This document shows, one piece after another, positions 41,011 through 61,482 of a DNA stretch of 64,000 nt. The position numbers and the translations under genes are program-made. Below the pieces are notes generated by a model. That model was not told the DNA's origin. It was given only the letters and a program-made list of their open reading frames with translations, and searched no databases. The stretch is taken from contig JADGNE010000057.1 of NCBI GenBank assembly GCA_015234425.1, forward strand, positions 54,729-118,728, given 5' to 3'. The stretch is from Devosia sp. Its GTDB lineage: Bacteria > Pseudomonadota > Alphaproteobacteria > Rhizobiales > Devosiaceae. Every line of letters begins with the position of its first letter. The stretch's first letter is position 1.

Positions 41011-43812
41011 CTAGCCATTGGCGGCTTTCTTGTCTTCGGTGGGGTTTTCGAACACGGCGAGCAGGGCGTCGTGGATCTTTTTTTGCCGCTGTTTCACGTG
41101 AATCTTCTGGCCTGTCAGGTCGGTGACGTAGAAAACGTCGACTGCCTTCTCGCCATAGGTGCCGATGTGGGCCGAGCCGATGGTGAGGTTGAGGTCCGAA
41201 ATTTCGCGGGTTAGCGCGTAGAGGAGGCCGATGCGATCCAGGCCGGACACCTCGATGACGGTGAACTTTTCCGAGATGGCGTTGGAGACCGACACCTGCG
41301 CGGGCAGGGCGAAGGGTTTGAGGCGCTTGTTGTGGCGGCTCTGCTTGCCCAGATCGATCAGCACGGTGCGCTTGCCCTGGAGCAGTTGCTTGACCGTATC
41401 GATGATGCGGGTGGCGCGGACTTTTTCGTCTTCGTCGGAGGTGAAGCTGCGGCGGAGGCGGAATGTGTCGATGGCGCGGCCGTCGCGGGTGGAAAAGATC
41501 TGCGCGCCGATGATGGAAGCATCCTGCATGGTACAGGCGCCAGCGATCAGCGAGAGCAGACGCGGGTGGTCAGGCGTATAGAAGCTGACCTCGGTGATGC
41601 CTTCAAACGCCTTGACCCGGATGGAGCCGGCGAAGGGCTGGTCGGCATCGTCGGCGTGGCGGATCATGCGGGCGTGTTCGAGCTGCAGCTCCGGCTCGGC
41701 GCGCAGCCAGTAATGGTCGTAGTGCCTCGCGAGATAGGTCTCCACCGCTTCGGCGGGCCATTTTTCGAGCGCGGTCGCAAGCGTCTGGCGGGCGGCGTGG
41801 ACGCGGTCGAAATGGCTGACCTGGCTGTGGCCGCCCGAGAGCAGGGGCTCAGTGGCATAATAGAGGGCGCGCAGCAGCGAGCCCTTCCAGCCGGTCCAGG
41901 TGCCGGGGCCGACGGCGCGGATATCGCAGGCGGTGAGGATCATCAGCAGCGCCAAACGCTGCGGCGACTGGACGATATCGGCAAAGGCTTTTGCCGTTTC
42001 CGGATCCTGGATATCGCGGGCCTGGGCGATCTCGCTCATCAAGAGGTGATATTCGATGAGCCAGGCGACGGTGTCGGTTTCGGCCGGGGTGAGGCCAAGG
42101 CGCGGACAGAATTTGCGGGCGATGCGGGCGCCGGCGGTTGAGTGATCCTCCGGGCGGCCCTTGGCAATGTCGTGGAGGAAGAGCGCGACATAGAGGAGGC
42201 GCGTGTCGTTGAGCTGGGGCAGCAGCTCATGGGTCAGCGGCAGCTCGTCGCGCAGGCCGCCATTGGCGATATCAGCCATGCAGCCGACCGAGCGGATGAG
42301 ATGCTCGTCCACCGTATAATGGTGGTACATGTTGAACTGCATCAGGGCGACGATCTTGCCGAAATCGAGCACGAACTTGCCCAGCACGCCGCTCTCGTTC
42401 ATCTGCCGCAGCATGCGCTCGACATAGAGCGGGCTGGTCAGAATGGTGAGGAAATAGCCATTGGCGCGGCTGTCGTTGCGCAGGCGATTGTCGATCAGAT
42501 GCAGCGAATGACGGATGTGCTTGATCGCATCGGGGTGGAAGAGCAGCTCTTCGCGACCGGCGACCATGAACATCTTGATGAGGTTGACCGGGTCTTTTTC
42601 AAAGACATCGGGGGCGGCGATATTGAGCCGGCCGGTGTCGAGGATGAAATCGGGCTCGCCCTTGATCTTGTTCTTGCCCGAGCGGAACGGCGCGAGCACG
42701 CGGCCGACGAGATCGAGATCCTTGGCGTGGTTGAACTCGAGGCTGGCGCAGATGATCCGGGTGAGATCGCCGACATCCTTGGCGACGAGGAAATAGCGCT
42801 TCATGAAGCGCTCGACCCCGAGCATGCCCAGGCGCTCGGCATAGCCCATGCGGCGGGCGAGATCGGGCTGGACGTCGAAGGTCAGCTTTTCCTCGGCGCG
42901 GGCGGTGACGAAATGGAGATGGCAGCGCACGGCCCAGAGAAAATCCTCGGCCCGTGAGAAGAGCCGATATTCGGCCGCCGTAAGAACGCCCTTGCCGACG
43001 AGTTCCTGGCTGGTCTTGACCTGGTAAAAATACTTGCCGATCCAGAACAGCGTATTGAGGTCGCGCAGACCGCCCTTGCCGTCCTTGATATTGGGCTCGA
43101 CCACATAGCGGGTATTGCCCATCTGCTTGTGGCGCTCGTCGCGCTCGGCCATTTTCGCGGCGATGAATTCCGGGCCCGTCTTGGGCATGATCTCGGTTTC
43201 AAAGCGGGTGACGAGCTGGTCGAAGAGGTTCTTGTCGCCGGTGAGGAAGCGGGCTTCCAGCGTGGCGGTGCGCACGGTCATGTCGGCGCGGGCCATGCGG
43301 ATGCACTCATCGACCGAGCGGACGGCGTGGCCGACCTTCTGGCCGAGATCCCAGAGCATGTAGAGGATATATTCGGTGACCTGCTCGCCCCAGGGGGTCT
43401 GCTTGTAGGGCAGGATGAAGAGGAGGTCGATGTCGCTACCCGGCGCCAGCGTGCCGCGGCCATAGCCCCCGACGGCCGAGAGCGCGATGGCTTCCGCGCC
43501 GGAGGGATTATCCACCGGATAGACCCGCGTGGTGGCGAAGAGATAGACGGCGCGAATGATCTCGTCCTGGGCGGCGGAGAGATTTTGCGCGCAGCGCGTG
43601 CCCTTGCTGGTGGCGATCAGTTCGGCCTCGGCGCCGGCGCGGGCATTGGCGAGGGTCTGGCGCATATGGGCCAGCACCAGGGCACGGGCCGCAGGCGATT
43701 TGGGCGGCTGATCGGCGACAAGAGCATCGAGCTCGGCAAGCAGGGCCGAGGCGCTCTTGAGCGCGAATTGGGCTTTTCGCGGCTTGGCCTCAGCGTCGGC
43801 GAGCATCATCAC
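41011..43812 (-). CDS. glnD: Bifunctional PII uridylyltransferase / uridylyl-removing enzyme
   Basis: A 933-residue nitrogen sensor. The nucleotidyltransferase motif is GGYGRGTLAPGSDIDLLF, the HD hydrolase motif lies in YVALFLHDIAKGRPEDHS, and two ACT domains are near the C-terminus (VSFYTPDHPRLLSLIAGAC and VIEVSGLDRIGLLYALTREI). It uridylylates PII proteins when glutamine is low and reverses this when it is high. Its start overlaps the mutS 3' end by 23 bases. The codons for IHVKQ near its C-terminus coincide with a ParB-site-like sequence. Confidence 0.97.
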   Translation of the reverse strand: MMMLADAEAKPRKAQFALKSASALLAELDALVADQPPKSPAARALVLAHMRQTLANARAGAEAELIATSKGTRCAQNLSAAQDEIIRAVYLFATTRVYPVDNPSGAEAIALSAVGGYGRGTLAPGSDIDLLFILPYKQTPWGEQVTEYILYMLWDLGQKVGHAVRSVDECIRMARADMTVRTATLEARFLTGDKNLFDQLVTRFETEIMPKTGPEFIAAKMAERDERHKQMGNTRYVVEPNIKDGKGGLRDLNTLFWIGKYFYQVKTSQELVGKGVLTAAEYRLFSRAEDFLWAVRCHLHFVTARAEEKLTFDVQPDLARRMGYAERLGMLGVERFMKRYFLVAKDVGDLTRIICASLEFNHAKDLDLVGRVLAPFRSGKNKIKGEPDFILDTGRLNIAAPDVFEKDPVNLIKMFMVAGREELLFHPDAIKHIRHSLHLIDNRLRNDSRANGYFLTILTSPLYVERMLRQMNESGVLGKFVLDFGKIVALMQFNMYHHYTVDEHLIRSVGCMADIANGGLRDELPLTHELLPQLNDTRLLYVALFLHDIAKGRPEDHSTAGARIARKFCPRLGLTPAETDTVAWLIEYHLLMSEIAQARDIQDPETAKAFADIVQSPQRLALLMILTACDIRAVGPGTWTGWKGSLLRALYYATEPLLSGGHSQVSHFDRVHAARQTLATALEKWPAEAVETYLARHYDHYWLRAEPELQLEHARMIRHADDADQPFAGSIRVKAFEGITEVSFYTPDHPRLLSLIAGACTMQDASIIGAQIFSTRDGRAIDTFRLRRSFTSDEDEKVRATRIIDTVKQLLQGKRTVLIDLGKQSRHNKRLKPFALPAQVSVSNAISEKFTVIEVSGLDRIGLLYALTREISDLNLTIGSAHIGTYGEKAVDVFYVTDLTGQKIHVKQRQKKIHDALLAVFENPTEDKKAANG
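41090..41105. promoter_or_regulatory. parS-like site 1 (inside glnD)
   Basis: TGTTTCACGTGAATCT matches the ParB site consensus TGTTTCACGTGAAACA at 14 of 16 positions. The complementary strand gives GATTCACGTGAAACA, the 15-mer shared with sites 2 and 4. It is read in glnD as codons for IHVKQ. Confidence 0.75.
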
Positions 43813-46504
43813 GGATTTTCTTCAACTCGTAGAGCGTATCGATGGCTTGCTTGGGGGTCATTTCGTCTGGGCGAATGGCGTCGAGCGCCTCGAGCACAGG
43901 GTCCTTGCTGGCGACAGCCGGGACTGGCTGGTGGGCAAAGAGTGGCAGATCATCTAGCACGCTGGCCTTCTGGCTGGAAGAGGCGGTGCCGGCCGAGCGC
44001 TGCTCGAGGACATCAAGAACCTGTTTGGCGCGGGCAATGACCGGCTCGGGCAGGCCGGCGAGGCGCGCCACCTGAATGCCATAGGAGCGATCGGCAGCGC
44101 CGGGCCCCACTTCGTGCAGGAAGACGACCTCGCCCTCCCACTCACGCACCTTCATGGTGACATTGGCGACGCGGGTGAGGGTTTTGGCGAGACTGGTCAG
44201 CTCGTGGAAATGGGTAGCGAAGAGCGCCCGGCAACCGGTGGTTTCATGCAGCGCCTCGACGGCCGCCCAGGCGATGGAGAGACCGTCGAAGGTGGCGGTG
44301 CCGCGGCCGATCTCGTCGAGAACGACAAGGCTGCGGCGGGTGGCGCGATTGAGAATGGCGGCGGTTTCGACCATTTCGACCATGAAGGTCGAACGCCCAT
44401 GGGCGATGTCGTCGGAAGCGCCGACGCGGGAAAAGAGACGGTCCACCACCCCTATATGGGCGCTGTCAGCCGGAACAAAAGAACCCATTTGCGCGAGAAT
44501 GGCGATGAGCGCGTTCTGGCGGAGGAAGGTCGACTTACCGCCCATATTGGGGCCGGTAACGAGCCAGAGCTTGCCGCCGCCGATATCGTCGGCCCCGGAG
44601 AGATCGGCATCATTGGCGACGAAGGCATGGCCCTCGGCCTTGACCATGGTTTCGACCACCGGGTGACGGCCGCCGACAATGGCAAAGGCGAGGCTGTCAT
44701 CGACCTGTGGGCGGCAATAGCCGCGCGTGGCCGCGATTTCGGCGAGGGCGGCGGTGACGTCGAGCTCGGCGAGACTATCGGCGAGATTCTGCAGCTGGCC
44801 GATCTGGGACAGGGCCGCCTCGCGCAGGAGGGTGAAGACGGCGTGCTCGATTTCGAGCGCAGCATCCTGAGCGCGGGCAATACGGCCTTCGAGCTCGGCC
44901 AGCTCGGTGGTGGTGAACCGCATCGCATTGGCGAGGGTCTGGCGATGGATGAAAATTTCGCGGTGCGGCGCTTCGAGCAGTTTTTGGCCGTGGGCGGCGG
45001 GGACTTCGACGAAGAAACCGAGGACGCCATTGTGCTTGATCTTGAGGGACCGCACATCGGTCTCGTCCATCAGCCGGGCCTGGAGCGCGGCGACGACGGC
45101 GCGGGTTTCCGAGCCGAGGGCGCGCTCTTCGTCGAGCTTTGCATTGTAGCCAGAGCGGACAAAACCACCGTCGCGGGTGAGAAGCGGCAGATCATCGGCC
45201 AGGGCAATGGCGAATTCACTGGCGAGGTCGCGCGGAGCGGCAGCCAGGGTTTTGGCGAGGCCGGAGAGAACCGCGGGCAGGTCGGAGATCTGGCCAAGCT
45301 TTTCGCCCAGCGCCAGGGCGACACTGACCCCCTTGCCGATGGACGCGAGATCGCGCGGGCCACCGCGCTCGAGCGCGAGGCGCGACAGGGCGCGGGCCAG
45401 ATCGGGCACGGATTTGAGATCGGTGCGGAGTTTTGCGCGGAGGATGGTGTCTTCGGCGAGGCGCGAGACTGCGTCGAGACGCGCATTGATGGCCGCGGCA
45501 TCGCGCAGGGGCGCGGCGAGGCGATTGGCGAGGAGACGCGCGCCGGGGGCGGTGACCGTCAGGTCGATGGCGTGGCGCAGCGAGTTTTTTGACTGGCCGC
45601 GCTGGGTCTGGAGGATTTCAAGGCTTTGACGGGTGGCCGCATCGATCGCGAGAACGGCGTCGGCGGCATCGAGAAGGGGCGGGCGCAAAGGCGCGGTGCG
45701 GCCCTTCTGGCTCTGGTCGACATAGGCCATGAGCGCGCCAAGGGCCGAGCGACCGGCGCGGGAGAGGGCAGAGGGATCAAAGACATCGGGCGTGAACAGG
45801 CGCCGGATGGCAGACAGGGCCAGTTCGCTGTCGGCAGCTTCAGGCGGCAGGATGGACGCGATCTCGGCCCAGGACGGCGCGAACAAATGGCGCTCGACGA
45901 GGGTTTCGCGGGTGCGCTCGGTGAGCAGCAACTCGGCCGGGGCGATACGGGCCAATTCGTCGGACAGGCGATCGGCGGAGAGATCGGCGACAAAGGTTTC
46001 GCCGGTGGAAATATCGGCCCAGGCGAGGGCGAAATCGGTGTCGCCATGGCGCACCATAGAGAGGGCGGCCAGATAATTGGCGCTGCGCGCATCGAGGTGA
46101 TCATCCTCGGTCAGCGTGCCGGGGGTGACCAGCCGCACCACATCGCGACGCACGACGGATTTACTGCCGCGCTTCTTGGCTTCGGCGGGGTCTTCCATCT
46201 GCTCGCAGATGGCGACGCGATGGCCGAGGCGAATGAGCTTGTTGAGATAATCATTGGCCGCGTGGATGGGCACGCCGCACATGGAAATATCTTCGCCCAA
46301 ATGCTTGCCGCGCTTGGTGAGCACAATGCCGAGGGCGGCGCTGGCGATTTCGGCATCTTCAAAGAAGAGCTCGTAGAAATCGCCCATGCGGTAGAACAGG
46401 AGATAACCGGGGTTGACCGCCTTGATCTCGAAAAACTGCGCCATCATCGGCGTCAGCGCCGCAGGCGCGGGGCTGGAGACGGCCTCCAAAGGGGTCTGAT
46501 CCAT
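43790..46504 (-). CDS. mutS: DNA mismatch repair protein MutS
   Basis: A 904-residue mismatch-recognition ATPase. The mismatch-binding domain includes MMAQFFEIKAVNPGYLLFYRMGDFYELF, with the Phe-X-Glu motif in GDFYELF. The C-terminal ATPase has Walker A GPNMGGKST and Walker B LVVLDEIGRGTATFDG. Its 3' end overlaps glnD, as in many Rhizobiales. A perfect hairpin lies 14-37 bases before the start codon. Confidence 0.97.
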   Translation of the reverse strand: MDQTPLEAVSSPAPAALTPMMAQFFEIKAVNPGYLLFYRMGDFYELFFEDAEIASAALGIVLTKRGKHLGEDISMCGVPIHAANDYLNKLIRLGHRVAICEQMEDPAEAKKRGSKSVVRRDVVRLVTPGTLTEDDHLDARSANYLAALSMVRHGDTDFALAWADISTGETFVADLSADRLSDELARIAPAELLLTERTRETLVERHLFAPSWAEIASILPPEAADSELALSAIRRLFTPDVFDPSALSRAGRSALGALMAYVDQSQKGRTAPLRPPLLDAADAVLAIDAATRQSLEILQTQRGQSKNSLRHAIDLTVTAPGARLLANRLAAPLRDAAAINARLDAVSRLAEDTILRAKLRTDLKSVPDLARALSRLALERGGPRDLASIGKGVSVALALGEKLGQISDLPAVLSGLAKTLAAAPRDLASEFAIALADDLPLLTRDGGFVRSGYNAKLDEERALGSETRAVVAALQARLMDETDVRSLKIKHNGVLGFFVEVPAAHGQKLLEAPHREIFIHRQTLANAMRFTTTELAELEGRIARAQDAALEIEHAVFTLLREAALSQIGQLQNLADSLAELDVTAALAEIAATRGYCRPQVDDSLAFAIVGGRHPVVETMVKAEGHAFVANDADLSGADDIGGGKLWLVTGPNMGGKSTFLRQNALIAILAQMGSFVPADSAHIGVVDRLFSRVGASDDIAHGRSTFMVEMVETAAILNRATRRSLVVLDEIGRGTATFDGLSIAWAAVEALHETTGCRALFATHFHELTSLAKTLTRVANVTMKVREWEGEVVFLHEVGPGAADRSYGIQVARLAGLPEPVIARAKQVLDVLEQRSAGTASSSQKASVLDDLPLFAHQPVPAVASKDPVLEALDAIRPDEMTPKQAIDTLYELKKIRDDARRR

Positions 46505-46517
46505 GTGCTCGGGCGGT

Positions 46518-46541
46518 TCGGGGCTAAAAACGAAGCCCCGA
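46518..46541. promoter_or_regulatory. Leader hairpin before mutS
   Basis: TCGGGGCT (46518-46525) and AGCCCCGA (46534-46541) form a perfect 8-bp stem. It lies between the DUF2189 stop and the mutS start. It might be a terminator for the DUF2189 transcript (no clear T-run after it on the minus strand) or a leader structure of mutS. Confidence 0.4.
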
Positions 46542-46604
46542 CCCTAAGGCTAACGGGTTAAAAATCCAACCGGTCGCGTGGACAGCAGAATGCGGCGTTT
46601 TGCA

Positions 46605-47429
46605 TCAAGCCGTCGGGGCTTGGCGAATGTGGGAGGCCGGTTCGACCAGGAGGCGATAGAGATGCCAGGTGGCGTGGCCGAGGATGGGCAGGACCACCGC
46701 CAGCCCGACGAACAGCAGCAGCGAGCCGACAAAGACCGAGAGCCCGACGATCAGCCCCCAGGCGAGCATGGGGATGGGGTTGCGCAGCACGGCGCGAATG
46801 GAGGTTTCCACCGCCACATAGGCGCCGACATCGCGATCGAGCAAGAGCGGGAAGGCGATGACCGTGGTGCAGAGCACGATGAGGGCATAGACGCCGCCGA
46901 GGAGCGAGCCGCCCAGAAGAAGGGTCATGCCGCCGGGCTCGTTGAAGATCTGGGCGAGAAGGCCATTAAAGGTGTTGGGCGGGGAGGAGCCGAAGAGGTT
47001 TTCGTAGAGCGCCTGGGCGCTGGTGAGCCAGAGGGTAAAGAGCACGAGCAGCATGATGCCGAGCGCGATGATCGAGCCGATGGCAGGGGAGCGCAGCACG
47101 TTCATCGCCTCGCCCCATGTGGTCTCGAGACCTTTTTCGCGGCGACGCGAAACTTCATAGAGCGGCAGGGCGGCGATGGGGCCGACAAGAGCAAAACCGC
47201 CGATGAGGGGATAGAGCAGGGACCAGGTGTGGTAGCCATTCATCCACATGGCGAGGACGATGCCGACGATGGGGTAGATCAGGATCAGCAGCACGTAATG
47301 GCTGGGTTTTTCCCAGAAATCGGCAGCTCCGCGGCGCAGCGCGGTGAACAGATCGGCTGTCGAGATGGTGCGGATGATGGGCATGTCCAGCTTGTCGCCG
47401 GCGCCGCTCATGACATGCAGATTGGCCAT
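46605..47429 (-). CDS. DUF2189 family membrane protein
   Basis: A 274-residue integral membrane protein with about six helices. ISTADLFTALRRGAADFWEKPSHYVLL and LLYPLIGGFALVGPIAALPLYEVSRRRE are the family signatures; some members carry a cytochrome c oxidase-related label. The function is unknown. It stands alone upstream of mutS on the same strand. Confidence 0.85.
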   Translation of the reverse strand: MANLHVMSGAGDKLDMPIIRTISTADLFTALRRGAADFWEKPSHYVLLILIYPIVGIVLAMWMNGYHTWSLLYPLIGGFALVGPIAALPLYEVSRRREKGLETTWGEAMNVLRSPAIGSIIALGIMLLVLFTLWLTSAQALYENLFGSSPPNTFNGLLAQIFNEPGGMTLLLGGSLLGGVYALIVLCTTVIAFPLLLDRDVGAYVAVETSIRAVLRNPIPMLAWGLIVGLSVFVGSLLLFVGLAVVLPILGHATWHLYRLLVEPASHIRQAPTA

Positions 47430-47617
47430 AGTCGTTTCCCTCCAGAAGCGGAGGTCGCTGACCCTGGCAGGCGCTCCCCAAAAATGCGCGTCACGCAGAA
47501 CCTGCGACCGCTAACAGAGGGCAGTGTAGTCGGGGTTTTGCGGGGTGTCGCGGGGGTTCAGGGAGATGTGATCGGGGGGGGGGGCTACCACTATGCCCTA
47601 GAGGACCACAGTCGCGC
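47430..47617. other. Gap with an 11-G homopolymer
   Basis: The region upstream of DUF2189 and of the small + strand ORF holds a run of 11 G at 47574-47584, within generally G-rich DNA. No gene, RNA or clear promoter was seen. Both flanking genes are divergent, so promoters for both should be here. Confidence 0.5.
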
Positions 47618-47785
47618 ATGATCGACCGGATCGGAGGAACCGAGCGAGGAAAGACCGCCCTTCTTTTTGGGTCTCTGCCGCTGTTCGTTAAACTGTTGAT
47701 CGCCGGTATTGCGCAGAACAACATCAAAAAGACTATGTCGCCCGCCGAAGCCGCCGTATCACTGAAGAGAGGGGGAACAAAATGA
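47618..47785 (+). CDS. Possible 55-aa small ORF with a hydrophobic core
   Basis: An ATG at 47618 opens 55 codons that end in TGA overlapping the next ATG (ATGA at 47782-47785). The product has a basic N-terminus, a hydrophobic core (ALLFGSLPLFVKLLIAGIA) and a polar, basic tail. The base composition is less GC-rich than the surroundings. No strong ribosome-binding site precedes the ATG. It could be a small membrane peptide or the remnant of a longer gene. The coupling to the next gene is the main support. Confidence 0.4.
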   Translation: MIDRIGGTERGKTALLFGSLPLFVKLLIAGIAQNNIKKTMSPAEAAVSLKRGGTK

Positions 47786-48447
47786 GCGACTTCTGTTTAT
47801 GCATAGAAGGAGAACATCTCGAATTCTGGCCAAGAATCCTCGATGATCCAGATTTATCACATCATATATTCACTTACCGGAACCGCCATTATCTAACTTC
47901 GACGGAGATTTCAGCTGCTCGCGACCCGGACCGTGCCCTGGAATTGGCAGAGCAGATCGTTGGCGAACTGAACGGCATCGTTGCCGCTTACCATCAATTT
48001 GCCCCGCTAAAGACGGTGGGGATGGGCCAAAGGCAGCCCGATGGCTCAATAATTTTGAGGCAATCAGCTTCATTGACCGCCAATGCGCGCGCCATGGCCT
48101 TTTTCAAACCTACTGGCTCAGCCCGCCCCACCGTTTTAACCCTTTTAGATAAGGTCGAGAATAACACGCGGCTGGCTGATGCGACGGCATATTATGGAAA
48201 GGCATAGAGTTGGTTCGGCCTATACTACGTGATCGAAGCGCTTTGCCAACATGCGGGCGGGGAAGCAGAATTCAAGAAGTCCGGATGGGCTGGGGCAAGT
48301 GCCACTAAGCTTGGAAAGCTCAAAGAAACTGCGAATTCTCACCGACATGCCTACGCTCGCGAGCCAGACGATAAATTGAGCTGGCGCGACGCTTATCGCC
48401 TTACTGGGGAACTCCTAATCTCTGCCATCCAGACTGCCCCCGACTAG
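47782..48447 (+). pseudogene. Hypothetical protein interrupted by an in-frame TAG
   Basis: One continuous frame of 222 codons (including the TAG and the final stop) is interrupted at 48205-48207 by a single TAG. The first part (141 aa) starts MSDFCLCIEGEHLEFWPRI; the second continues without a shift as SWFGLYYVIEALCQHAGGEAEF, ending near SAIQTAPD. The second part resembles a conserved W-x-x-LY-x-x-xE helical pattern with TAN and RHA found in proteobacterial hypothetical proteins. A Gln, Trp, Lys, Tyr or Glu codon could have become TAG. Composition is less GC-rich than the neighbours. Confidence 0.75.
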
Positions 48448-48460
48448 GGGCGCATTAAGG

Positions 48461-48488: not shown

Positions 48489-48518
48489 CTCATTTCATTC
48501 AAATATCCAAAAACCCAA

Positions 48519-50160: not shown

Positions 50161-50173
50161 TGAACTTTCCACG

Positions 50174-50365: not shown

Positions 50366-52003
50366 CTATTGCAGGCTGTCGATTTCGTAGCGGTCGGATG
50401 GGTCGTGCTGCGGCCGGTAGACGAAATAGTCGAAATCGGCGGGGCTGGCGGTGCCGTTGAGGTCGTGGGCTGCGACGCCGACGAAGGCGCCGGTGAAGCT
50501 GCCATGGGCCTGGTGGCCACCGCATTCGTCCGAGAGGATCGAGGCGTCGAGCACGGGGCCGATGGGCTGCAGTTCCTGGCCTTCGAGGGCGTAGAAGAAC
50601 TGCAGGTTTCGACCGCGGATGGTGAGGGCCAGCCGGACCTTGCCCTCATTGGGGATCTGCACCGGAGCGGCCGGGAAGCGCATATTGCCATCCGGCCAGG
50701 AGACTTCCGAGGACATGAGCAGCAATTCGCGCTGGCCGTCCGAATGGGCGGTCACCGCGAGGTAGAAAAAGTTGTAGCGGCTGTAATAGGCCGTCAGGCC
50801 CGCCATGGTGCGCTCGTCGGTCGGCTTGAAATCGACGATGGTTTCCGCGTCATAAGAGAAATGGGTCTGGCGACGGGCGACCAGAGATTGCTCGAACCAC
50901 GAACCGATGGATTCGCGACCAAAGAGGCGCAGCTTGCCCTCCTGGGTCGAGAAGATGCGCTCGGTTTCCGGGGTGCGCAGCCACTGGAAATCAAGGGGCA
51001 GGCCGTTTTCGAATGTATAGCGCTGCTCGGACCAATATTTGGCCTCGTCGCGCGTGCCCGGAACTTCGACATGAAGGGACGGAACAGGCCCGTGTTTCAC
51101 GTGAATCCAGTCATCATCGCCCCAATAGGCTTCCTGGATAGAGGTCTCGCGGCCGAGCACGCAGCGGCGTTCCTGGGTGGTCGGGCGACCGCCCAGATGG
51201 ACGAGATAGGTTTTTCCATCGGGCGTCTCGACAAGGTCGCCATGGCCGGCGCGCTGAATGGCAGCGAGGGGCGCGTCCTTGGAGGTCAGGATATATTTAT
51301 CCGGATGAGTCTCGTAGGGCCCGTCGATGTTGCGCGAGCGGGCAAAGGTGCAGGCATGGTCATAGGCCGTGCCGCCTTCGGCGGTCAGCAGGTAATACCA
51401 GGGCTTTCCGTCCTTGCCGTTGCGCTTGTAGAGGTGCGGGCCTTCGACGAGCTCCAGATCAGTGCCCTGATAGATGTTCTTGATCGGGCCAACGAGTTTG
51501 CCGAGCTCGGGATCGAACTGCTGCAGCGCAATGCCGGCGAACAGCAGCGGACGGCGCCGGTGGTCCCAGGTCATGTTGACGAACCATTTCTTGCCGTCGT
51601 CATCATGGAAGAGGGAGGGGTCAAAGCCCGAGGAATTGGCGTAGATCGGGTCGGACCAGGGGCCTTCAATGTTCTCGGCCCAGACGATGTAATTATGCGC
51701 GTCCTTGAACGAGCCATCCTTGCGCTTGACGTCGGTATAGACGAGCCAGAATTTTTCGCCGTCATGGGTGAGGCAGGGGGCCCAGACGCCGCAGCTGTCG
51801 GGATCGCCGCGCATGTCGAGCTGGGTTTTCCGGTTCAGCGGACGGGTGATCAGCTCCCAATTGGCCAGGTCCTTTGAGTGGTGGATCTGAACGCCCGGGA
51901 ACCACTCGAAGGTGGAGGTGGCGATGTAATAATCATCGCCGACGCGGAGGATGGACGGGTCCGGATTAAAGCCGGGCAGGATGGGATTGGTGATTTGCGG
52001 CAT
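50366..52003 (-). CDS. xynB: Glycoside hydrolase family 43 beta-xylosidase
   Basis: A 545-residue enzyme without a signal peptide, so cytoplasmic. The five-bladed propeller holds the catalytic base in ILPGFNPDPSILRVGDDYY, WFPGVQIHHSKDLANWELITRPL, WAPCLTHDGEKFWLVYT and the catalytic acid in LELVEGPHLYKRNGK. The last 200 residues form a lectin-like domain. It cleaves xylose from imported xylo-oligosaccharides and feeds xylA and xylB, which lie upstream on the same strand. The codons for IHVKH coincide with parS-like site 2. Confidence 0.93.
   Translation of the reverse strand: MPQITNPILPGFNPDPSILRVGDDYYIATSTFEWFPGVQIHHSKDLANWELITRPLNRKTQLDMRGDPDSCGVWAPCLTHDGEKFWLVYTDVKRKDGSFKDAHNYIVWAENIEGPWSDPIYANSSGFDPSLFHDDDGKKWFVNMTWDHRRRPLLFAGIALQQFDPELGKLVGPIKNIYQGTDLELVEGPHLYKRNGKDGKPWYYLLTAEGGTAYDHACTFARSRNIDGPYETHPDKYILTSKDAPLAAIQRAGHGDLVETPDGKTYLVHLGGRPTTQERRCVLGRETSIQEAYWGDDDWIHVKHGPVPSLHVEVPGTRDEAKYWSEQRYTFENGLPLDFQWLRTPETERIFSTQEGKLRLFGRESIGSWFEQSLVARRQTHFSYDAETIVDFKPTDERTMAGLTAYYSRYNFFYLAVTAHSDGQRELLLMSSEVSWPDGNMRFPAAPVQIPNEGKVRLALTIRGRNLQFFYALEGQELQPIGPVLDASILSDECGGHQAHGSFTGAFVGVAAHDLNGTASPADFDYFVYRPQHDPSDRYEIDSLQ
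51093..51108. promoter_or_regulatory. parS-like site 2 (inside the xylosidase gene)
   Basis: TGTTTCACGTGAATCC matches the ParB site consensus at 14 of 16 positions and contains the reverse complement of the shared 15-mer GATTCACGTGAAACA. It is inside codons for IHVKH. Confidence 0.75.
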
Positions 52004-52165: not shown

Positions 52166-52173
52166 TGTGACGC

Positions 52174-53481: not shown

Positions 53482-54941
53482 GAAATTGCCTCCTCAATGG
53501 CGGGGTAGAGTGCGCGGTAGCGCGCATATTGATCGGAATAGGCGGCCGACAGGGATGTGTCGGGCGCGATAATTGTCTTGATGGACGGCATGGCCATGAC
53601 ATCGGCGGGCTTGGCGCCGGTGGCGGCGCAGAGGCCGAGGCGGGCGGCGCCGAGCGCGCCACCGAAATCACCGTCCTCGGGGAGGGCGATTTCCATGTCG
53701 AGATTGGTCGCCAGCATCTTCAACCAAAGGGCGGATTTTGAACCGCCGCCCACCGCCAGGAGGCGATTGATGGAGGTACCGGCATCGGCGAGGACGCGCT
53801 GGCAATCACGCATGGCTAAGGTGACACCTTCCATGACGGCCTGGGCCAGCTGGGCGCTGTCGGTGGACTGGCTGAGACCGACAAAGGAGCCGCGGGCATT
53901 GGCATTGTTGTGCGGAGTGCGCTCACCCGAGAGATAGGGCAGGAAGATCGCTTCGCCCGGACCGGCAAACTGGGCCTCGGCTTCGCCTGCGAGCTCGGCC
54001 TGCTTCTTGCCGGTGATGCGGGAGAGCCAGTTCAGCGAATCGGTCGCCGAAAGGATGACGCCCATCTGGTGCCAGGTATCGGGAATGGCGTGGCAGAAGG
54101 CGTGGACGGCGCCGTGGGTATTGGGGCTGAACTTTTCGTTGGAGACGAAAAGCACGCCTGACGTGCCGAGGGAGACAAAGCCCTCGCCGGGACGGATGGC
54201 GCCGATGCCACAGGCGGCCGCCGCATTGTCGCCCGCGCCACCGGCGACGACGACGGTGCCCGACATCCCCCAGCGGGAGACGAATTCGGGCTTGAGCTGC
54301 GCCGAGACGGCAGAGCCTTCCACCAGACGCGGCATGTGCCCGCGGGTGAGGCCGGTGACGCCGAGCAATTCGTCCGACCAGTCGCGCTTGGCGACGTCGA
54401 GCCAGAGCGTGCCGGCGGCGTCGGACATGTCTTCGACGTGCTCGCCGGTGAGCAGCAGGCGGACGTAAGCCTTGGGCAGCAGCACCTTGGCGATTTTGTC
54501 GTAGATGGCCGGCTCGTGCTTGCGGACCCAGGCGATTTTTGGCGCGGTGAAGCCGGGCATGGCGATATTGCCGGCGAGATCGCGCAGATTGGGGAGCGCG
54601 GCTTCCATTTCCCCGCATTCGGCGGAAGAGCGGCCGTCATTCCAGAGGATGCAGGGGCGCAGCACCTCGTCATTGGCATCGAGAAGCGTCGCGCCATGCA
54701 TGTGGCCGGAGAGGCCAATACCGCGCACATCGGCGAGCTCGGTCGGGTGGCTTTGCTTGAGCTTGTCGATGGCGCCGAGGGTGGCAGTCCACCAATCAGC
54801 GGGATTTTGTTCCGACCAGCCCGGATGGGGGCGGACCGGCTCGACGGCGGGCGCGGAGGCTTCGCCGATGGCGCGGCCGTTGTCGTCGATGAGCAGAGCC
54901 TTGACCCCGGACGTGCCGATATCGATGCCGAGGAAGGTCAT
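53478..54941 (-). CDS. xylB: Xylulokinase
   Basis: A 487-residue FGGY-family kinase that phosphorylates D-xylulose for entry to the pentose phosphate pathway. The phosphate-binding [20 protein letters not shown] opens the protein, [15 protein letters not shown] and the late [15 protein letters not shown] are family motifs. The operon xylB-xylA is followed, past a repeat, by the xylosidase gene. A LacI regulator lies 90 bases upstream. Confidence 0.96.
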
Positions 54942-55030
54942 GAGGCACGTACCTCAGAAATGATCAAAAGCAACATCAGCTCCTCCTCCTGCCCAATTTT
55001 GGGCCGCCCATGTTTTGATTGGACGTTTGT

Positions 55031-56095
55031 TTAGCGCAGATTGTCGCGCAGGAAAATCCCAATTTCAATGGGGTCGCTGGCAAGGGGCCGCGGCGTCGAC
55101 AAGGCAAGGGACCGTGCGGCGGCAATCACCTCCCGGATTTCGCCATCCGGGTTCTGGTCGAGGACCACGTCGATGGCGCTGGATTTGAGGCCAGCGCGGG
55201 TGGGGCCGGTCAATTCGTGCGCGATGACGCGAATGCTCCGGGCGCGACCGGATTTTTCGAGCGCCGCGACGAGCCCGGCATTGCCAGCGCCGAGATTGTA
55301 TAGGCCTGAAAGATCTGGGTGTTTCGCGAGAATGTCGGCGACCAGGGTCTCGGTTTCCGCGCCGTCGTCATGCCCCTCAAACGGGCCGATCGGGTCGACG
55401 CCCGAAAATTCCGCGCCGAGAACTTGGGAAAATCCCTCAAAGCGCTCCTTGTGATCGCGAAGGTGGAGGGAACCGGCGATAACGGCCACCTTGCCACCGG
55501 CGGGCAGGAAGCGTCCGAGCAGGGAGGCTGCCGTACGGCCGGCTGCAACATTGTCGATGCCGATGAAGTGGCGACGACCGGAGCCGGGCAGGTCGGACAC
55601 CAGCGTCATCACCACGATACCCCGGCGCGTAGCCGAATCGACGGCAGCGACAATGGCCGGGTCTTCGCTGGCGACGATGACGGCGCAGTCGCAGCTTTGC
55701 GGGGAAAGGCGATCGAGCTCGCGGGCGAGGGCCCCGGCATCAAGGGCGCGGACGCGCTGGGTGGAGATGTGGATGCGGTCGGAATTGGCCTGCGGCGCGC
55801 GACGCCCCACCGCATCGGCGAGGCTGTCCATGAATTCATTGGCGCTGTCGGGGATGAAGAACAGGATCGACAGATCCCGCGCCCGGGCCATCAGCGAGGC
55901 ATTGAGATCGCGCGAAAATCCGAGGCTGGCAATGGCCTCCTCGACCTTTTCAGCCGTGGCGGCGCGCACCCCGGGGCGACCATTGAGGACACGGTCCACC
56001 GTGGCCAGGGACACGCCGGCAGAGCGCGCTACATCATGCACCGTCACCCGGCGCCGGACTGCCTCGTCGTCCACTCTGCCCCCCAGTTTTATCAT
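55031..56095 (-). CDS. LacI-family transcriptional regulator
   Basis: A 354-residue regulator. The helix-turn-helix is VTVHDVARSAGVSLATVDRVLNGRPGVRAATAEKV, and the rest is a periplasmic-binding-like sugar sensor (LSGLYNLGAGNAGLVAALEKS). It very likely controls the xylose genes downstream and the divergent mutarotase. The start at 56095 is chosen; an upstream ATG at 56131 would add 12 residues. A 17-bp palindrome lies in the divergent region. Confidence 0.88.
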   Translation of the reverse strand: MIKLGGRVDDEAVRRRVTVHDVARSAGVSLATVDRVLNGRPGVRAATAEKVEEAIASLGFSRDLNASLMARARDLSILFFIPDSANEFMDSLADAVGRRAPQANSDRIHISTQRVRALDAGALARELDRLSPQSCDCAVIVASEDPAIVAAVDSATRRGIVVMTLVSDLPGSGRRHFIGIDNVAAGRTAASLLGRFLPAGGKVAVIAGSLHLRDHKERFEGFSQVLGAEFSGVDPIGPFEGHDDGAETETLVADILAKHPDLSGLYNLGAGNAGLVAALEKSGRARSIRVIAHELTGPTRAGLKSSAIDVVLDQNPDGEIREVIAAARSLALSTPRPLASDPIEIGIFLRDNLR

Positions 56096-56146
56096 TTCCA
56101 ACAGACGCACAGTTCCCGAGCCCTGGCACAAAGGTCAAGTGCGGCG

Positions 56147-56163
56147 TTGCCCGAGAGGGGCAA
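56147..56163. promoter_or_regulatory. Candidate LacI operator in the divergent region
   Basis: TTGCCC-GAGAG-GGGCAA is a perfect 6-bp inverted repeat with a 5-base spacer, lying 52 bases upstream of the LacI start and 45 bases upstream of the mutarotase start. LacI sites are usually of similar length but with a central CG; this is a structural candidate only. Confidence 0.45.
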
Positions 56164-56207
56164 ATAGGGCTAGACCTGCCCGCCAGAAATTGCGAGAGGG
56201 CAAGCGG

Positions 56208-57221
56208 ATGGCGATTGCGGTATCTACCTTCGGCGAGCATGGCGGCAAGCGCGTCGACCAGTTTCGTCTGGTCAGCGACACTGGCGTAACCGTCGATATC
56301 ATCGGCTATGGCGTGGCCGTGCGGGACTGGCGCGTGCCGGTGGCGGGCGGCGAGCGGAGCGTGGTGCTCGGCTTTGACAGTTTTGAGCCCTATCCGCTGC
56401 ACAGCCCGCATTTCGGCTCGCTGGCCGGACGCGTTGCCAATCGCATCAAGGATGCCTCGTTCGAGATCGACGGCGTCACCTACAAGCTGCCGCCCAATGC
56501 GGGCGATCTGCAGCTGCATGGCGGCACCGAGGGCCTTGGCCGACAGGTGTGGTCGGGGCAGGCGGACAGCGCCAATAACGCCGTGCGCTTCACCCATTTT
56601 TCGCCCGACGGCGCAATGGGTTACCCCGGCAATGTGAATTTTGCTGCGACCTATACGCTGCTGGGCAACAAGCTGCGGCTGGAGCTCAGCGCAACGACCG
56701 ACCGCGCCACGCCGATCAGCCTCGTGCAGCACCAATATTTCAATCTCGGCACCACCGACGACGTGCTCGATCACTCGATCCAGGTCAATTCGAGCGCCTA
56801 TACGCTGCTTGGCGACGATCTGGCGCCGACCGGCGCGATCCTGCCTTCGCGCGGCACGAAATATGATCTGCGCACGGCGCGGACCATGCGCGACGCAGAA
56901 GGCCAGCCGGTCGATTATGATATTGGCATGGTGCTCGACAGCGGTCGCAAGACCAGCGATCCGATTGCCACGGTTGTGTCGCCGGACAAGGACCTCACCC
57001 TCAAGATCTGGAGCGATCGGCCGGGCGTGCAGGTCTATAACAGCGTCTGGACTGACATTCCGGTGCCGGGGTTGGGTGGCAAGACCTATGGCCGCTTCTC
57101 GGGCCTTTGCCTCGAGGACCAGAACCTGGCCGACGCGCTGCACAATCCGCATTTCCCCAACATCATCCACACGCCGGACCGGCCCTACAGCCATTGGTGC
57201 GAGATCGAGATCGCGGAATAG
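56208..57221 (+). CDS. galM: Aldose 1-epimerase (mutarotase)
   Basis: A 337-residue beta-sandwich enzyme that interconverts alpha and beta anomers of sugars. The motifs GRVANRIKDASFEIDG, LQLHGGTEGLGRQVW, HQYFNLG (catalytic His) and GLCLEDQNLADALHNP with the catalytic Glu are typical. Xylose isomerase prefers one anomer, so it fits the xylose block. GAGAGGGCAAGCGG before the ATG is a good ribosome-binding region. Confidence 0.94.
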   Translation: MAIAVSTFGEHGGKRVDQFRLVSDTGVTVDIIGYGVAVRDWRVPVAGGERSVVLGFDSFEPYPLHSPHFGSLAGRVANRIKDASFEIDGVTYKLPPNAGDLQLHGGTEGLGRQVWSGQADSANNAVRFTHFSPDGAMGYPGNVNFAATYTLLGNKLRLELSATTDRATPISLVQHQYFNLGTTDDVLDHSIQVNSSAYTLLGDDLAPTGAILPSRGTKYDLRTARTMRDAEGQPVDYDIGMVLDSGRKTSDPIATVVSPDKDLTLKIWSDRPGVQVYNSVWTDIPVPGLGGKTYGRFSGLCLEDQNLADALHNPHFPNIIHTPDRPYSHWCEIEIAE

Positions 57222-57244
57222 GGGGAGTATCCCCTCCTACCTAG

Positions 57245-57306
57245 CCATTCGAGCATAGCTCTCATGGCCTTCTTGCCTAAAATTGCTCTTCAGGAGCAAT
57301 TTTGCC
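57245..57306. repeat. 62-bp two-hairpin element, family C copy 2
   Basis: GAGC-ata-GCTC and then AAAATTGCTC-ttcag-GAGCAATTTT (57279-57303). Relative to copy 1 (37629-37690), three base pairs in the stems have changed on both sides. It lies after galM and before a GC-rich repeat. Confidence 0.8.
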
Positions 57307-57324
57307 TGCCCGGCGCGAAGCCCC

Positions 57325-57420
57325 TGACAAGGGGGAGGGATCTGCCGGCGGCTCCCCAATTTTCGTGACACACTCGATTTGTTCCTCCCCCTGACAGGGG
57401 GAGGATAGGTGGGGGTTTGG
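57325..57420. repeat. GC-rich intergenic repeat before the WYL regulator
   Basis: CCCCTGACAAGGGGGAGGGA at 57325-57345 and CCTCCCCCTGACAGGGGGAGGA at about 57384-57406, with GTGGGGGTTTGGG following. It is the same family as 40883-41000 and 49913-50160. Confidence 0.6.
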
Positions 57421-57483
57421 GCGATCGCCCATAGACCTAAGGTGCTGAATTTGGCACCCTCTCCGTCCTCCGGAGGAAGCGCG

Positions 57484-58188
57484 ATGGACAAGACCGAGCG
57501 GCTTTTTGCCATCATGGACGCGCTGCGGCGCCATCGCCGGCCGATCACGGCGGCGGCACTGGCCGAGGAGCAGGGCGTTTCCGTGCGCACGCTCTATCGC
57601 GATATCCAGACGCTGATCGGGCTCGGCGCGCCGATCGATGGCGAGGCGGGGATCGGCTATATGCTGAAGCCCGGATTTTTCCTCCCGCCGCTGATGTTTT
57701 CCCCCGAAGAGCTGGAAGCCCTGGTGCTCGGCGCGCGCTGGGTGGAAGCCCAGCCGGACGACCAGCTGGGTGCAGCTGCTCGCAATGCACTGGCAAAAAT
57801 CGCCACCGCATCACCCGAGGATCTGCGCGACCGGATCAGCGATACGGCACTGTGGCCGGTGGCGGTGTGGGGCAAGCGCAAGCCGATCCCGGTGCTGAGC
57901 GATATCAGGCTGGCCATGCGGCAGGAAAAGGCCGTGCGCATCGACTATGAAGACGAACAGGGGCGCGTTTCGAGCCGCACCATCTGGCCGGTGGGCATCG
58001 CCTTTTACGAGGGCAAGCAGACCATTTCCGCCTGGTGTTGCCTGCGGGAAGATTTTCGCAATTTCAGGACCGACCGGATTGTGTGCCTGACCCTTACCGA
58101 AGAGCGCTATGGCAAGCGCCGCGCCGTGCTGGAGCGCGAATGGCGCGAGAGCTGGGAACGGGATGCCCAGCACATGCAGGCCGGCTAA
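57484..58188 (+). CDS. WYL-domain transcriptional regulator (YafY type)
   Basis: A 234-residue protein with an N-terminal winged helix (RLFAIMDALRRHRRPITAAALAEEQGVSVRTLYRDI) and a WYL domain (VRIDYEDEQGRVSSRTIWPVGIAFYEGKQTISAWCCLREDFRNFRTDRI). WYL regulators often sense nucleotides or small ligands and control sugar or stress genes. Its 3' end overlaps that of the RamB-like gene by four bases (convergent). The target is unknown. Confidence 0.85.
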   Translation: MDKTERLFAIMDALRRHRRPITAAALAEEQGVSVRTLYRDIQTLIGLGAPIDGEAGIGYMLKPGFFLPPLMFSPEELEALVLGARWVEAQPDDQLGAAARNALAKIATASPEDLRDRISDTALWPVAVWGKRKPIPVLSDIRLAMRQEKAVRIDYEDEQGRVSSRTIWPVGIAFYEGKQTISAWCCLREDFRNFRTDRIVCLTLTEERYGKRRAVLEREWRESWERDAQHMQAG

Positions 58189-59591
58189 CCCATTCTTGCA
58201 TAAATGCTTTCTGGACGGATGGTGTCGTCGAGACGGAAGCGGTGATCGGCCGGCGGATGGGCGCGGCTTGAGCATTCGAGGCGTGGACAGATGCGGCAGC
58301 CGGTGCCGATGGGCACGATCTGCTGCTCGCTGGTGAGATCGACGCCTTCGGAATAAATCATCTCCCTGGCGTGGTGGATGGCGCAGCCCAGCCCGATGGA
58401 GAGATGCCGACGCGGGGCATTGTAGCGATAGTCCCCCTTGGTGATGGTGCGGGCGATGCAGAAATAGCGCTGGCCATCGGGCATCTGGCTGATCTGCACA
58501 TTGATGCGGTCGGGCGCGAGGAAAGCGGCATAGATATTCCAGCGCGGGCAGGCTCCCGAATGGCGCGGGATGTGAATGCCCGAGAGCGAAAAGCGCTTTG
58601 AAATGTTTCCTGCAATATCGGTGCGCACCAGGTGGAGCGGAATGCCCGAAGCGCCCTTGCGCTGCAGCGTGGTCATGCGATGGCAGACCTGCTCGAAACT
58701 GGCGCCAAACCGCCGACCGACGCGATCGATATCATAGCGATGATCGCGGCAGGCTTTCAGAAATGGCTCATAAGGCATGAGCAGGGCGGCGGCGAAATAG
58801 GACGAGAGCACGTTTCGCGCCAAAGCCGGGGCGTCGCCCTCGGGCAGATTGGCCGCCTCAATGACGGCTGCGATTTCGGCACTGGCGGCCAGCGTGCCGA
58901 TTTGTTGGGCGAGCAGGAAAGACGCGGTCTCACCAGGCAGGAGGTCGGACACCAGCAGATGCCGGCGCGCCGAATCGAGCTGGCGCGCCACGCCATGGGG
59001 CAGGGAGGCCAGACGGGTTTCGAGCCCGAAGACGTTGAAAAGATAGGTTCTTATGCCGGTTTCAAAACTATCGCCGGAATTGTCTATGTCGATGCGGACG
59101 CGTTCCGCGGCTTCCTCGAGGATGGGAAAATGATTGGCATTGGCCTGGAGGAAATCGGAGATGGCATCGGTGGCGAGGTGGAAGGGTTCCGCCTCAGCTT
59201 GCACCGGGCGCGGAGTTTCTTCGCCTGTCAGATTTTTGTAGCGGTCATAGAGCTTTAACACTGCTCGCGCTGCCGCCGGATTGGCGTGCGCTAGGTCACG
59301 GATCTCGAGATTGGTGAGGTCACTGTCGGCAAAGAGATCGTCGCCGAAAATCTCCATGAGATCACCGACCAGCCGACCTTCATCGCTGTCGACCAGCTCG
59401 CCCGGCTCGACGCCAAAATAGCCCGCGATGGAAAACAACAGCGGCACCGTCACCTTGCGGCGATTGTGCTCGATGAGATTGAGGTAGCTTGGCGAAATGC
59501 CCAGCGCGGCAGCGAGGTCGGCCTGGTTGAGATGCCGAACGCGGCGCAAGCGCTTGATGCGCCCGCCGATCTGGCTTGCCGATGCCTCCAT
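58185..59591 (-). CDS. RamB/ScfR-like XRE regulator with M78 metallopeptidase-like and DUF2083 domains
   Basis: A 468-residue regulator. The XRE helix-turn-helix is at residues 8-60 (IKRLRRVRHLNQADLAAALGISPSYLNLIEHNRRKV). The middle belongs to the ImmA/IrrE (M78) fold, and the C-terminus (DUF2083) has cysteines in GCRICPRLECSSRAHPP. Related RamB and ScfR proteins repress or activate glyoxylate bypass genes, and aceA is the next gene on the other side of the divergent promoter. The start follows GGGAGG. Confidence 0.9.
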   Translation of the reverse strand: MEASASQIGGRIKRLRRVRHLNQADLAAALGISPSYLNLIEHNRRKVTVPLLFSIAGYFGVEPGELVDSDEGRLVGDLMEIFGDDLFADSDLTNLEIRDLAHANPAAARAVLKLYDRYKNLTGEETPRPVQAEAEPFHLATDAISDFLQANANHFPILEEAAERVRIDIDNSGDSFETGIRTYLFNVFGLETRLASLPHGVARQLDSARRHLLVSDLLPGETASFLLAQQIGTLAASAEIAAVIEAANLPEGDAPALARNVLSSYFAAALLMPYEPFLKACRDHRYDIDRVGRRFGASFEQVCHRMTTLQRKGASGIPLHLVRTDIAGNISKRFSLSGIHIPRHSGACPRWNIYAAFLAPDRINVQISQMPDGQRYFCIARTITKGDYRYNAPRRHLSIGLGCAIHHAREMIYSEGVDLTSEQQIVPIGTGCRICPRLECSSRAHPPADHRFRLDDTIRPESIYARMG

Positions 59592-59605
59592 TCCGACCTC
59601 CCGAA

Positions 59606-59715
59606 CTTTACACGCTTTACATTCATGACAGTACCGATTGACAGGCGCTTTACAGCTTTACAGCCGCTTTTGTCGTTAGTTCTTGCATAGAGAGCGCAGA
59701 TGTCAAATCTTTACA
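59606..59715. promoter_or_regulatory. Five CTTTACA repeats in the divergent promoter
   Basis: CTTTACA occurs at 59606, 59615, 59648, 59656 and 59709, all on the + strand. Four are in two tandem pairs with 9- and 8-base steps. They lie between the RamB-like start (59591) and the small conserved gene (59737). They are good candidate operators for this regulator. Confidence 0.6.
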
Positions 59716-59736
59716 TCAACGACGAGGAGACATTCG

Positions 59737-59964
59737 ATGAACAGCGATATCGCTCAACGCGACGAGTACATCACCATCATTGCCCCGACTGCGCAGGAGG
59801 CCATGGCGCAGTTCAAGGCCCGCGGTCTTGATGATCAGGGTTTCACCATTGCCGGGCGCATTGGCCGCCATCAGTTCACCCTGGTGGGCGCGGAAGAAGC
59901 GCAGGAATTGTTTTCCGGCGCCGGCATGATTGCAGCGACTTTCAGCCGTCGGGTTTCGGCTTAG
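59737..59964 (+). CDS. Small conserved protein upstream of aceA
   Basis: A 75-residue cytoplasmic protein (MNSDIAQRDEYITIIAPTAQ...). It has no signal peptide or membrane segment. Similar proteins occur before isocitrate lyase in related genomes, as far as I can recall, but the function is unknown. It follows a GAGGAGA ribosome-binding site and the five-repeat promoter, and precedes aceA by 185 bases. It is likely co-regulated with aceA. Confidence 0.75.
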   Translation: MNSDIAQRDEYITIIAPTAQEAMAQFKARGLDDQGFTIAGRIGRHQFTLVGAEEAQELFSGAGMIAATFSRRVSA

Positions 59965-59994
59965 GGCAGGGGGCCGCGTGTGATGGCACGAGCC

Positions 59995-60040
59995 TACCAC
60001 CCCCACCCTTGATCCCTCCCCACAAGGGGGAGGGAGACGA
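59995..60040. repeat. GC-rich repeat upstream of aceA
   Basis: CCACCCCCACCCTTGATCCC, followed by TCCCCACAAGGGGGAGGGAG. The palindrome is nearly identical to that at 18380-18410. Confidence 0.6.
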
Positions 60041-60068
60041 CTGCACCAATTTGCACCCCTAAAATCCG

Positions 60069-60084
60069 TGTTCCACGTGAATCA
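60069..60084. promoter_or_regulatory. parS-like site 3 (upstream of aceA)
   Basis: TGTTCCACGTGAATCA matches the ParB site consensus at 14 of 16 positions. Its complement TGATTCACGTGGAACA differs from the shared 15-mer by one base. It lies 66 bases before the aceA ATG, in non-coding DNA. Confidence 0.75.
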
Positions 60085-60149
60085 CCCAGAAAACTGCCAG
60101 AACCTGCTGCGGCGGGACCGGCGGAGCCATGCCTCAAGAGGAGAAAAGC

Positions 60150-61445
60150 ATGCTCGACAAGCCCCACAAGCCCGAAAGCTTCCCGACGCCGGACTACGCG
60201 CCGGATCGCTGGCGCACTATTTCGCGCAACTATACGCCCGCCGATGTGCGCCGGCTGGCCGGGTCCCTGCCCATCCGGCATACGCTGGCCGAAAATGGCG
60301 CCAAACGTCTTTGGGAACTGCTGCACACAGAAGATTTCGTGCCGACGCTGGGCACGTTTACCGGCAACCAGGCGGTGCAGCAGGTCAAGGCCGGCCTGAA
60401 AGCCATTTATCTTTCCGGCTGGCAAGTGGCAGCGGACGCGAACACCTCGGGCAATATGTATCCGGATCAGTCGCTTTACCCGGTGGACAGCGTTCCTTCC
60501 GTGGTCAAGCGCATCAACAAGGCCCTGCAGCGCGCCGACCAGATCCAGACCATGGAAAAGGCCGACGGCATTGCCACCACCGATCACGATTTCTTCGTGC
60601 CCATCATTGCCGACGCCGAAGCCGGTTTTGGCGGCGCGCTCAATGTGTTCGAGCTGATGAAGGCGATGATCGAGGCCGGCGCAGCGGCGGTGCATTTTGA
60701 GGATCAGCTGGCGAGCGAGAAGAAGTGCGGGCATCTCGGTGGGAAGGTGCTGGTTCCCACCGCGCAATTCGTCAAGACGCTGAATGTTGCCCGTCTCGCG
60801 GCGGACGTATTGGGCGTTCCGACGTTGATCATGGCCCGTACGGACGCGGAAGCTGCACGGCTGATCACCTCGGATATCGACGAATATGATCGCCCCTTCG
60901 TCACCGGCGAGCGCACGGCTGAAGGCTTTTATCGGCTCAAGGGCGGTATTGACTGCGCCATTGCCCGTGGTCTGGCTTATGCGCCCTATGCCGACCTCAT
61001 CTGGTGCGAAACGTCGACGCCGGACCTGGCAGAAGCGCGCAAATTCGCCGAAGCGATTCGCAAGGAATATCCGGAGCAGATGCTCGCCTATAATTGCTCG
61101 CCGAGCTTTAACTGGGCCAAGCATATGGGCGAGGCGGAAATGGAAAAGTTCCAGCGCGAGCTGGGCGCCATGGGCTACAAATACCAGTTCATCACGCTGG
61201 CGGGCTTTCACAATCTCAGCCTCACCACGTTCGAGCTGGCGCGCAGCTACAAGGAACGTGGCATGGCCGGCTACTCGGCGCTGCAGCAGGCCGAATTTGC
61301 CGCCGAAAAACACGGTTTCTCGGCCGTTCGCCACCAGCGCGAAGTGGGGACGAGCTATTTCGATGCCGTGTCGATGACCGTGAGCGAAGGCCAGAGCGCC
61401 ACCACGGCGATGGCCGACTCCACCGAAACCGCACAATTTCACTGA
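60150..61445 (+). CDS. aceA: Isocitrate lyase
   Basis: A 431-residue enzyme that splits isocitrate to glyoxylate and succinate, the first step of the glyoxylate bypass. The active-site loop is [16 protein letters not shown] with the catalytic Cys in KKCGH, and [13 protein letters not shown] and TLAGFHNLS are also typical. The ATG at 60150 follows AGAGGAGAAAAGC. Malate synthase is not in the window. It is flanked by two parS-like sites. Confidence 0.97.
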
Positions 61446-61466
61446 AATCCGGGCAGAACCTCCCTC

Positions 61467-61482
61467 GGATTCACGTGAAACA
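61467..61482. promoter_or_regulatory. parS-like site 4 (downstream of aceA)
   Basis: GGATTCACGTGAAACA matches the ParB site consensus at 14 of 16 positions and contains the shared 15-mer GATTCACGTGAAACA. It lies 22 bases past the aceA stop in non-coding DNA. Confidence 0.78.

Follow-up and report, generated by a model that had tools for sequence, protein, structure and literature searches.

How do four nearly identical 16-mers come to lie near the end of glnD, inside a xylosidase gene and on both sides of aceA in a Devosia genome? The stretch analyzed here (the window) is the terminal 64 kb of contig C57 (JADGNE010000057.1), in a genome of 3.98 Mb that is assembled into 74 contigs. Its GlnD points to this genus, with identities of up to 87% to named Devosia records. 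The initial annotation had read these 16-mers as parS-like sites and proposed a candidate loading zone of the partition protein ParB near the chromosome origin. According to our analysis of sequences, the four sites very probably belong to a ParABS centromere of a known kind, i.e. to a long, one-sided and conserved array whose outer end lies in the window.

The outermost site of the array, TGTTTCACGTGAATCT (41090..41105), is located within the 3' end of glnD, and TGTTTCACGTGAATCC (51093..51108) within the xylosidase gene; TGTTCCACGTGAATCA (60069..60084) and GGATTCACGTGAAACA (61467..61482) are found upstream and downstream of aceA, respectively. All are given on the plus strand. The GATTC half is on the minus strand in the first two sites and on the plus strand in the fourth; the third has a change in the partner half and an intact GATTC half. 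A mismatch scan of the window reproduced these four sites at the positions reported before, each matching the parS consensus TGTTTCACGTGAAACA at 14 of 16 positions, and the 15-mer GATTCACGTGAAACA is indeed exact at three of them and has one mismatch at the fourth. When up to three mismatches are allowed, the window contains five matches, i.e. the four sites with two mismatches each and a fifth (9712) with three; shuffled versions of the window yield a mean of 0.10 matches and at most one. At up to two mismatches, 0.005 matches per window and 0.31 per genome are expected at this G+C content. The chance estimate of about 0.02 in the initial annotation (0.017 with uniform bases) was thus conservative.

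A scan of the whole assembly, the check suggested at that time, reveals that the sites are not spread evenly. At up to two mismatches there are 13 sites, four on C57 and nine on C3 (191 kb of 3.98 Mb), the contig that carries parB; the reversed control pattern has no match in the same genome. At three mismatches, 18 matches compare with five for the reversed control. Of the five extra matches, three are located on C3 and conform to the motif; the other two, on C27 and at 9712 of the window, look like chance. The sole ParB match over the cut-off in the genome is on C3, and DnaA is found on C41, in keeping with the earlier remark that parAB and dnaA are outside the window.

Contigs C57 and C3 adjoin in three closed genomes: the end of C57 directly precedes the start of C3 in G010 and G023 as well as in G016, which belongs to the same species and whose ParB is 100% identical. 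All 13 sites are hence clustered near parAB and the putative origin, and the motif is rare elsewhere. In G016, 9.4 kb separate the last aligned points of C57 and C3, compared with 3.2 kb of contig ends here, so that the assembly possibly lacks sequence at their junction. The distances of the window sites to parB are at least 57, 58, 67 and 77 kb here, and 64, 66, 75 and 84 kb in G016. The genes on C3, named by NCBIfam, follow the order maf-gap-hemE...rho-mnmE-mnmG-rsmG-parA-parB-holA; maf is just below its cut-off, and the ParA/MinD-type ATPase, below cut-offs, is called parA by position. Of three TTAAN7TTAA boxes found in 191 kb, two fall into the gap between maf and hemE (438 bp, 49.5% G+C). 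By the usual alphaproteobacterial arrangement, for which an AT-rich maf-hemE gap with CtrA and DnaA boxes and a switch of the skew would be expected, we take this gap to be the putative origin of replication (oriC). In Hyphomonas, parAB are located about 7 kb from hemE (PMC6650430). The distance from dnaA to parB is about 167 kb in G023, 181 kb in G010 and 239 kb in G039. Two loci of G010 (L151, G010:C1:3511354-3515445, and G010:C1:3331223-3331903) are irregular: DnaA is divided between two matches that overlap but differ in frame, and the ParB match starts only at residue 64, in a frame of 230 residues; both possibly reflect sequence errors or real frame changes.

The array recurs throughout the genus. 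All 41 Devosia genomes of an even sample from a larger group, among them the own genome, carry between four and 13 sites. In 32 genomes, 279 exact GATTCACGTGAAAC sites were mapped relative to parB; this placement leaves out eight of 40 genomes without a complete listing and 19 sites on contigs without parB. The positions form a ladder: the core sites are no more than 7 kb from parB, and past the putative oriC, satellites follow at roughly -25, -35, -42, -49, -57 and -62 kb; on the other side, 22 of the 32 genomes have a site between +4 and +11 kb. Among 12 genomes that reach far enough, 11 have a site oriented like that at 61467 at -54 to -65 kb, and nine of the 12 have a neighbor resembling the site at 60069 a further 0.7-3.4 kb out; these counterparts are assigned by position, except in G010 and G023, where an alignment of aceA is the basis. 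With 13 sites on two adjoining contigs and positions kept genus-wide, the sequences support the proposed loading zone near the origin. Membership of the window in the array stands, and its place can be refined: the window would represent the distal fringe, and the dense core lies on C3 (rho-mnmE-mnmG-rsmG-parAB).

Several observations weigh against this reading. The reversed control gives one or two matches in seven of the 41 Devosia genomes (none in 34), the junction of C57 and C3 lies outside the sequence of this assembly, the maf-hemE gap contains a single match resembling a DnaA box, and the GC skew of G010 (20 samples and a 200-kb stretch) reveals no clear switch. Furthermore, none of 13 aligned relatives shares the glnD site, all having 9-12 differences or a gap at this place; single outer sites may hence be dispensable. 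It is present in G016 of the same species. The xylosidase site is exact in one of six aligned relatives (L020), and a grouping by flanks assigns it to four of 13 genomes, the copy of G016 having one more change; the site at 60069 is exact in G010, G023 and G016. Apparently, the inner ladder is kept and the outer end of the array turns over.

If the sites are parS, those in the window are predicted to be ParB nucleation sites at the origin-distal end of a single Devosia array. This array would begin about 8 kb beyond parB, span the parAB core together with the putative oriC between maf and hemE, and reach at least 77 kb from parB on one arm, with its sites spaced by 1.4 to 14 kb. A ParB dimer would read the 16-mer, close as a clamp bound to cytidine triphosphate (CTP) and slide onto the flanking DNA; the dense core would assemble the partition complex moved by ParA, and the satellites would extend the ParB-bound, SMC-loading zone along one arm. 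The scheme of nucleation, clamp and sliding is that of established work on chromosomal ParABS systems. Devosia ParB possesses the residues of parS specificity; it keeps R173, T179 and G201 of the Caulobacter protein and has K in place of A184. Its R162 and G190 align to the equivalents of 173 and 201, where R and G mark chromosomal ParB and not Noc (PMC7383237); accordingly, the protein classifies as a chromosomal ParB. With the array, a long and one-sided bacterial centromere is mapped throughout the genus, and fragmented Devosia assemblies can be ordered near the origin.

What does the deviation of the sites from the consensus mean? We analyzed 162 sites from 13 genomes (pattern GTTTCACGTGAAAC within two mismatches; 1.53 Mb, to which G039 contributes only 80 kb). 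The orthology grouping keeps one merged group of 39, for which reason site counts and not counts of independent events are reported. The predominant form is GATTCAC/GTTTCAC (105 sites), followed by GTTTCAC/GTTTCAC (19), GATTCAC/GTTCCAC (15), GATTCAC/GCTTCAC (15) and GTTCCAC/GTTTCAC (4), and four forms occur once each. A GATT-type half is present in 137 of the 162 sites, and sites that lack A at position 3 are confined to two positions, one in rsmG at -1.4 kb (all 13 genomes) and one after parB at +0.9 kb (12 of 13). Hence, and this is new, the array sites apart from these two positions at parAB consist of a GTTTCAC-type half and a GATTCAC half. The combination GATTCAC/GATTCAC is absent from all 162 sites; one GATTCAC/GATCCAC site exists and still contains a single GANTC. 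Further changes number 31 in the partner half and one in the GATTCAC half. The base that appears as a mismatch is part of a regular asymmetric site form and not a sign of decay.

In the 40 genomes, 364 sites have the exact form with A and T at position 3 of the two halves (A/T). When C or G at position 3 was searched for, 48 GCTTCACGTGAATC and one GCTTCACGTGAAAC were found; that is, 48 of the 49 sites with C at this position keep GATTCAC and one has GTTTCAC. However, 37 of the 48 C/A sites lie at one position near -20 kb (nine elsewhere on the parB contig, two on other contigs), and the bias is therefore much weaker in independent events. Coding sites use two reading frames and other sites are noncoding, so that a codon constraint can be rejected as the sole cause of A at position 3, although the site at C3:50935 contributes its TGA as the stop codon of mnmE. 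Most satellites share one orientation, but the ratio over 17 position classes grouped by hand is 11 to 6, and a polarity of the asymmetric sites is thus not significant. Two perfect GGTTCACGTGAACC palindromes occur on contigs without parB in two Devosia genomes (G028:C6:442594 and G005:C1:21961) and are perhaps an operator of another regulator.

GATTC fits GANTC, the methylation motif of CcrM, and a GTTTCAC half has just one single-base change that creates GANTC, namely A for T at position 3. The genome contains a CcrM-type gene on C74. Its product, a methyltransferase with a C-terminal RAMA domain (over the cut-off), is close to CcrM: it matches structure 6pbd with E 4e-161 and NF050803 with E 1e-187, at 623 bits below the cut-off of 830; among 14 control genomes, the RAMA domain was found in Caulobacter only. 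Across 299 genomes of the phylum, with the split by order and class counted by hand, the exact 14-mer of the site is present in the own genome and, within the order, in 20 of 41 further genomes; the remaining 21 are devoid of it, as are all 79 genomes from the other orders in the class, and it occurs once each in seven of the other 178 genomes. In stretches around the hits of the 20 same-order genomes, GTTTCAC is paired with GTTTCAC 34 times, with GATTCAC 47 times and with GACTCAC 12 times, and four further partners occur once each. Because these genomes were chosen for the A/T form, the A/T count is biased, but the GACTC count is not. The 12 GACTCAC/GTTTCAC sites stem from seven genomes of one related genus, and GACTC is a GANTC as well; in the stretches from the 20 genomes, position 4 is never changed without A at position 3. 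Outside the array, a search over 400 kb of G010 found a single weak partner (CTTTCCC) and nothing resembling an array site.

These patterns permit different interpretations. One, a refinement of the ParB array, is a methylation-marked centromere in which each site combines a GTTTCAC-type half with a GANTC half (general pattern GANTCACGTGAAAC) and so carries one CcrM mark; we regard it as possible, with the chances somewhat against it. CcrM would methylate the GANTC of the site late in the cell cycle, replication would leave it hemimethylated, and this state would alter the loading or release of ParB; alternatively, ParB could shield GANTC and thereby set local methylation. Put most strongly, and tentatively, the Devosia centromere would be gated by methylation, all parS of the array bar the two symmetric ones at parAB having one CcrM site in one half. 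The hemimethylated phase behind the fork might then time the reloading or release of ParB on the sisters, and other Hyphomicrobiales would use GATTC or GACTC to the same end. We regard this proposal, too, as possible, with the chances somewhat against it. A functional GANTC half would directly link the methylation clock of CcrM to ParB-parS segregation at the level of sequence. In favor are the prevalence of the GATT-type half, the lack of sites with two GATTCAC halves, the concentration of further changes in the partner half, the GACTCAC sites, the retention of GATTCAC beside C at position 3, the occurrence in two frames and outside genes, and the CcrM-type gene itself. On the other hand, CcrM has been reported for most orders of Alphaproteobacteria (PMC3973325), and yet the 14-mer is missing in the 79 genomes from other orders and in half of the same-order genomes (21 of 41); T and C are the only bases found at the N of GANTC, the sites are related by descent, as the position near -20 kb illustrates, and the CcrM match stays below its cut-off.

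The asymmetry could also originate from ParB alone, an explanation to which we assign slightly better than even chances: ParB of Hyphomicrobiales would accept or prefer GATTCAC in one half for structural reasons, and GANTC would be coincidental. The K at the equivalent of 184, a position called permissive for DNA binding, is consistent with this, as are the lack of the form in other orders with CcrM and the parS of Caulobacter, which likewise have one conserved half (PMC5815017). A homodimer that prefers GATTCAC should, however, take two such halves, and none of the 162 sites has them; if GATTCAC were merely tolerated, C/T would not be expected to be rarer than C/A (1 vs 48), and GACTCAC occurs without any other change at position 4. 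A third explanation dispenses with parS altogether: the sites could be the operator of another regulator, e.g. of carbon metabolism, or chance look-alikes, and in its favor aceA is flanked by two of them and a cluster of xylose genes contains another. This is highly improbable given the 0.1 matches per shuffled window and the restriction of the motif to C57 and C3, where the copies on C3 lie in or beside rsmG, mnmE, rho and parB and share no metabolic theme.

The closest known counterpart of the Devosia array is provided by parS1-7 and ParABS of Caulobacter crescentus, in which 16-mers also lie near parAB and ori on one arm and one half-site is more conserved; the ParB proteins are close relatives. 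Caulobacter has five strong sites within 5 kb (PMC5815017), whereas Devosia has about 13-16 sites out to 77 kb or more, and the Caulobacter consensus t/cGTTt/cCACGTGAAAca (PMC7022226) is without A at position 3, unlike most Devosia sites. Long parS arrays of about 21-22 sites in Streptomyces, Listeria and Myxococcus (PMC5815017, PMC7022226) resemble the Devosia array in that many sites are distributed across the origin region; their consensuses, where given, are symmetric or lack GANTC, in contrast to the mostly combined T and GATTCAC halves of Devosia. In repABC replicons (PMC9040568, PMC11514494), CcrM motifs are close to the partition sites and cell-cycle control has been proposed, but GANTCs are located near parS or in promoters and not, as in Devosia, inside a half of the parS of the main chromosome. 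The methylation state of GANTCs at the chromosomal parS locus of Caulobacter has been measured; the cited passages do not state that they are part of the parS sequence (PMC5172544), while the GANTC of Devosia lies within the site. Literature searches for GATTCACGTGAAAC (one strand only) and for Devosia together with parS and ParB returned no match, and those for the 10-mers GATTCACGTG or GACTCACGTG returned no ParB title among the matches listed.

The gene contexts given in the initial annotation are borne out by domain searches. On the minus strand, glnD (41011..43812; NCBIfam NF003467 over the cut-off) hosts the first site and the GH43 beta-xylosidase gene (50366..52003; Pfam PF04616, GH43, and PF17851, GH43_C2) the second; aceA, encoding isocitrate lyase (60129..61445, plus strand; NCBIfam NF011645 over the cut-off), lies between the third and the fourth. 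Both coding sites of the window encode IHVK in the same frame, i.e. KIHVKQ in GlnD (minus strand) and WIHVKH in the xylosidase. Most aligned relatives have other DNA there, and the gain of a parS site may have cost protein residues at these two places. Near aceA, the minus strand of the window (58185-59591) encodes a RamB-like regulator of acetate metabolism (NF038139, E 2e-115, below the cut-off).
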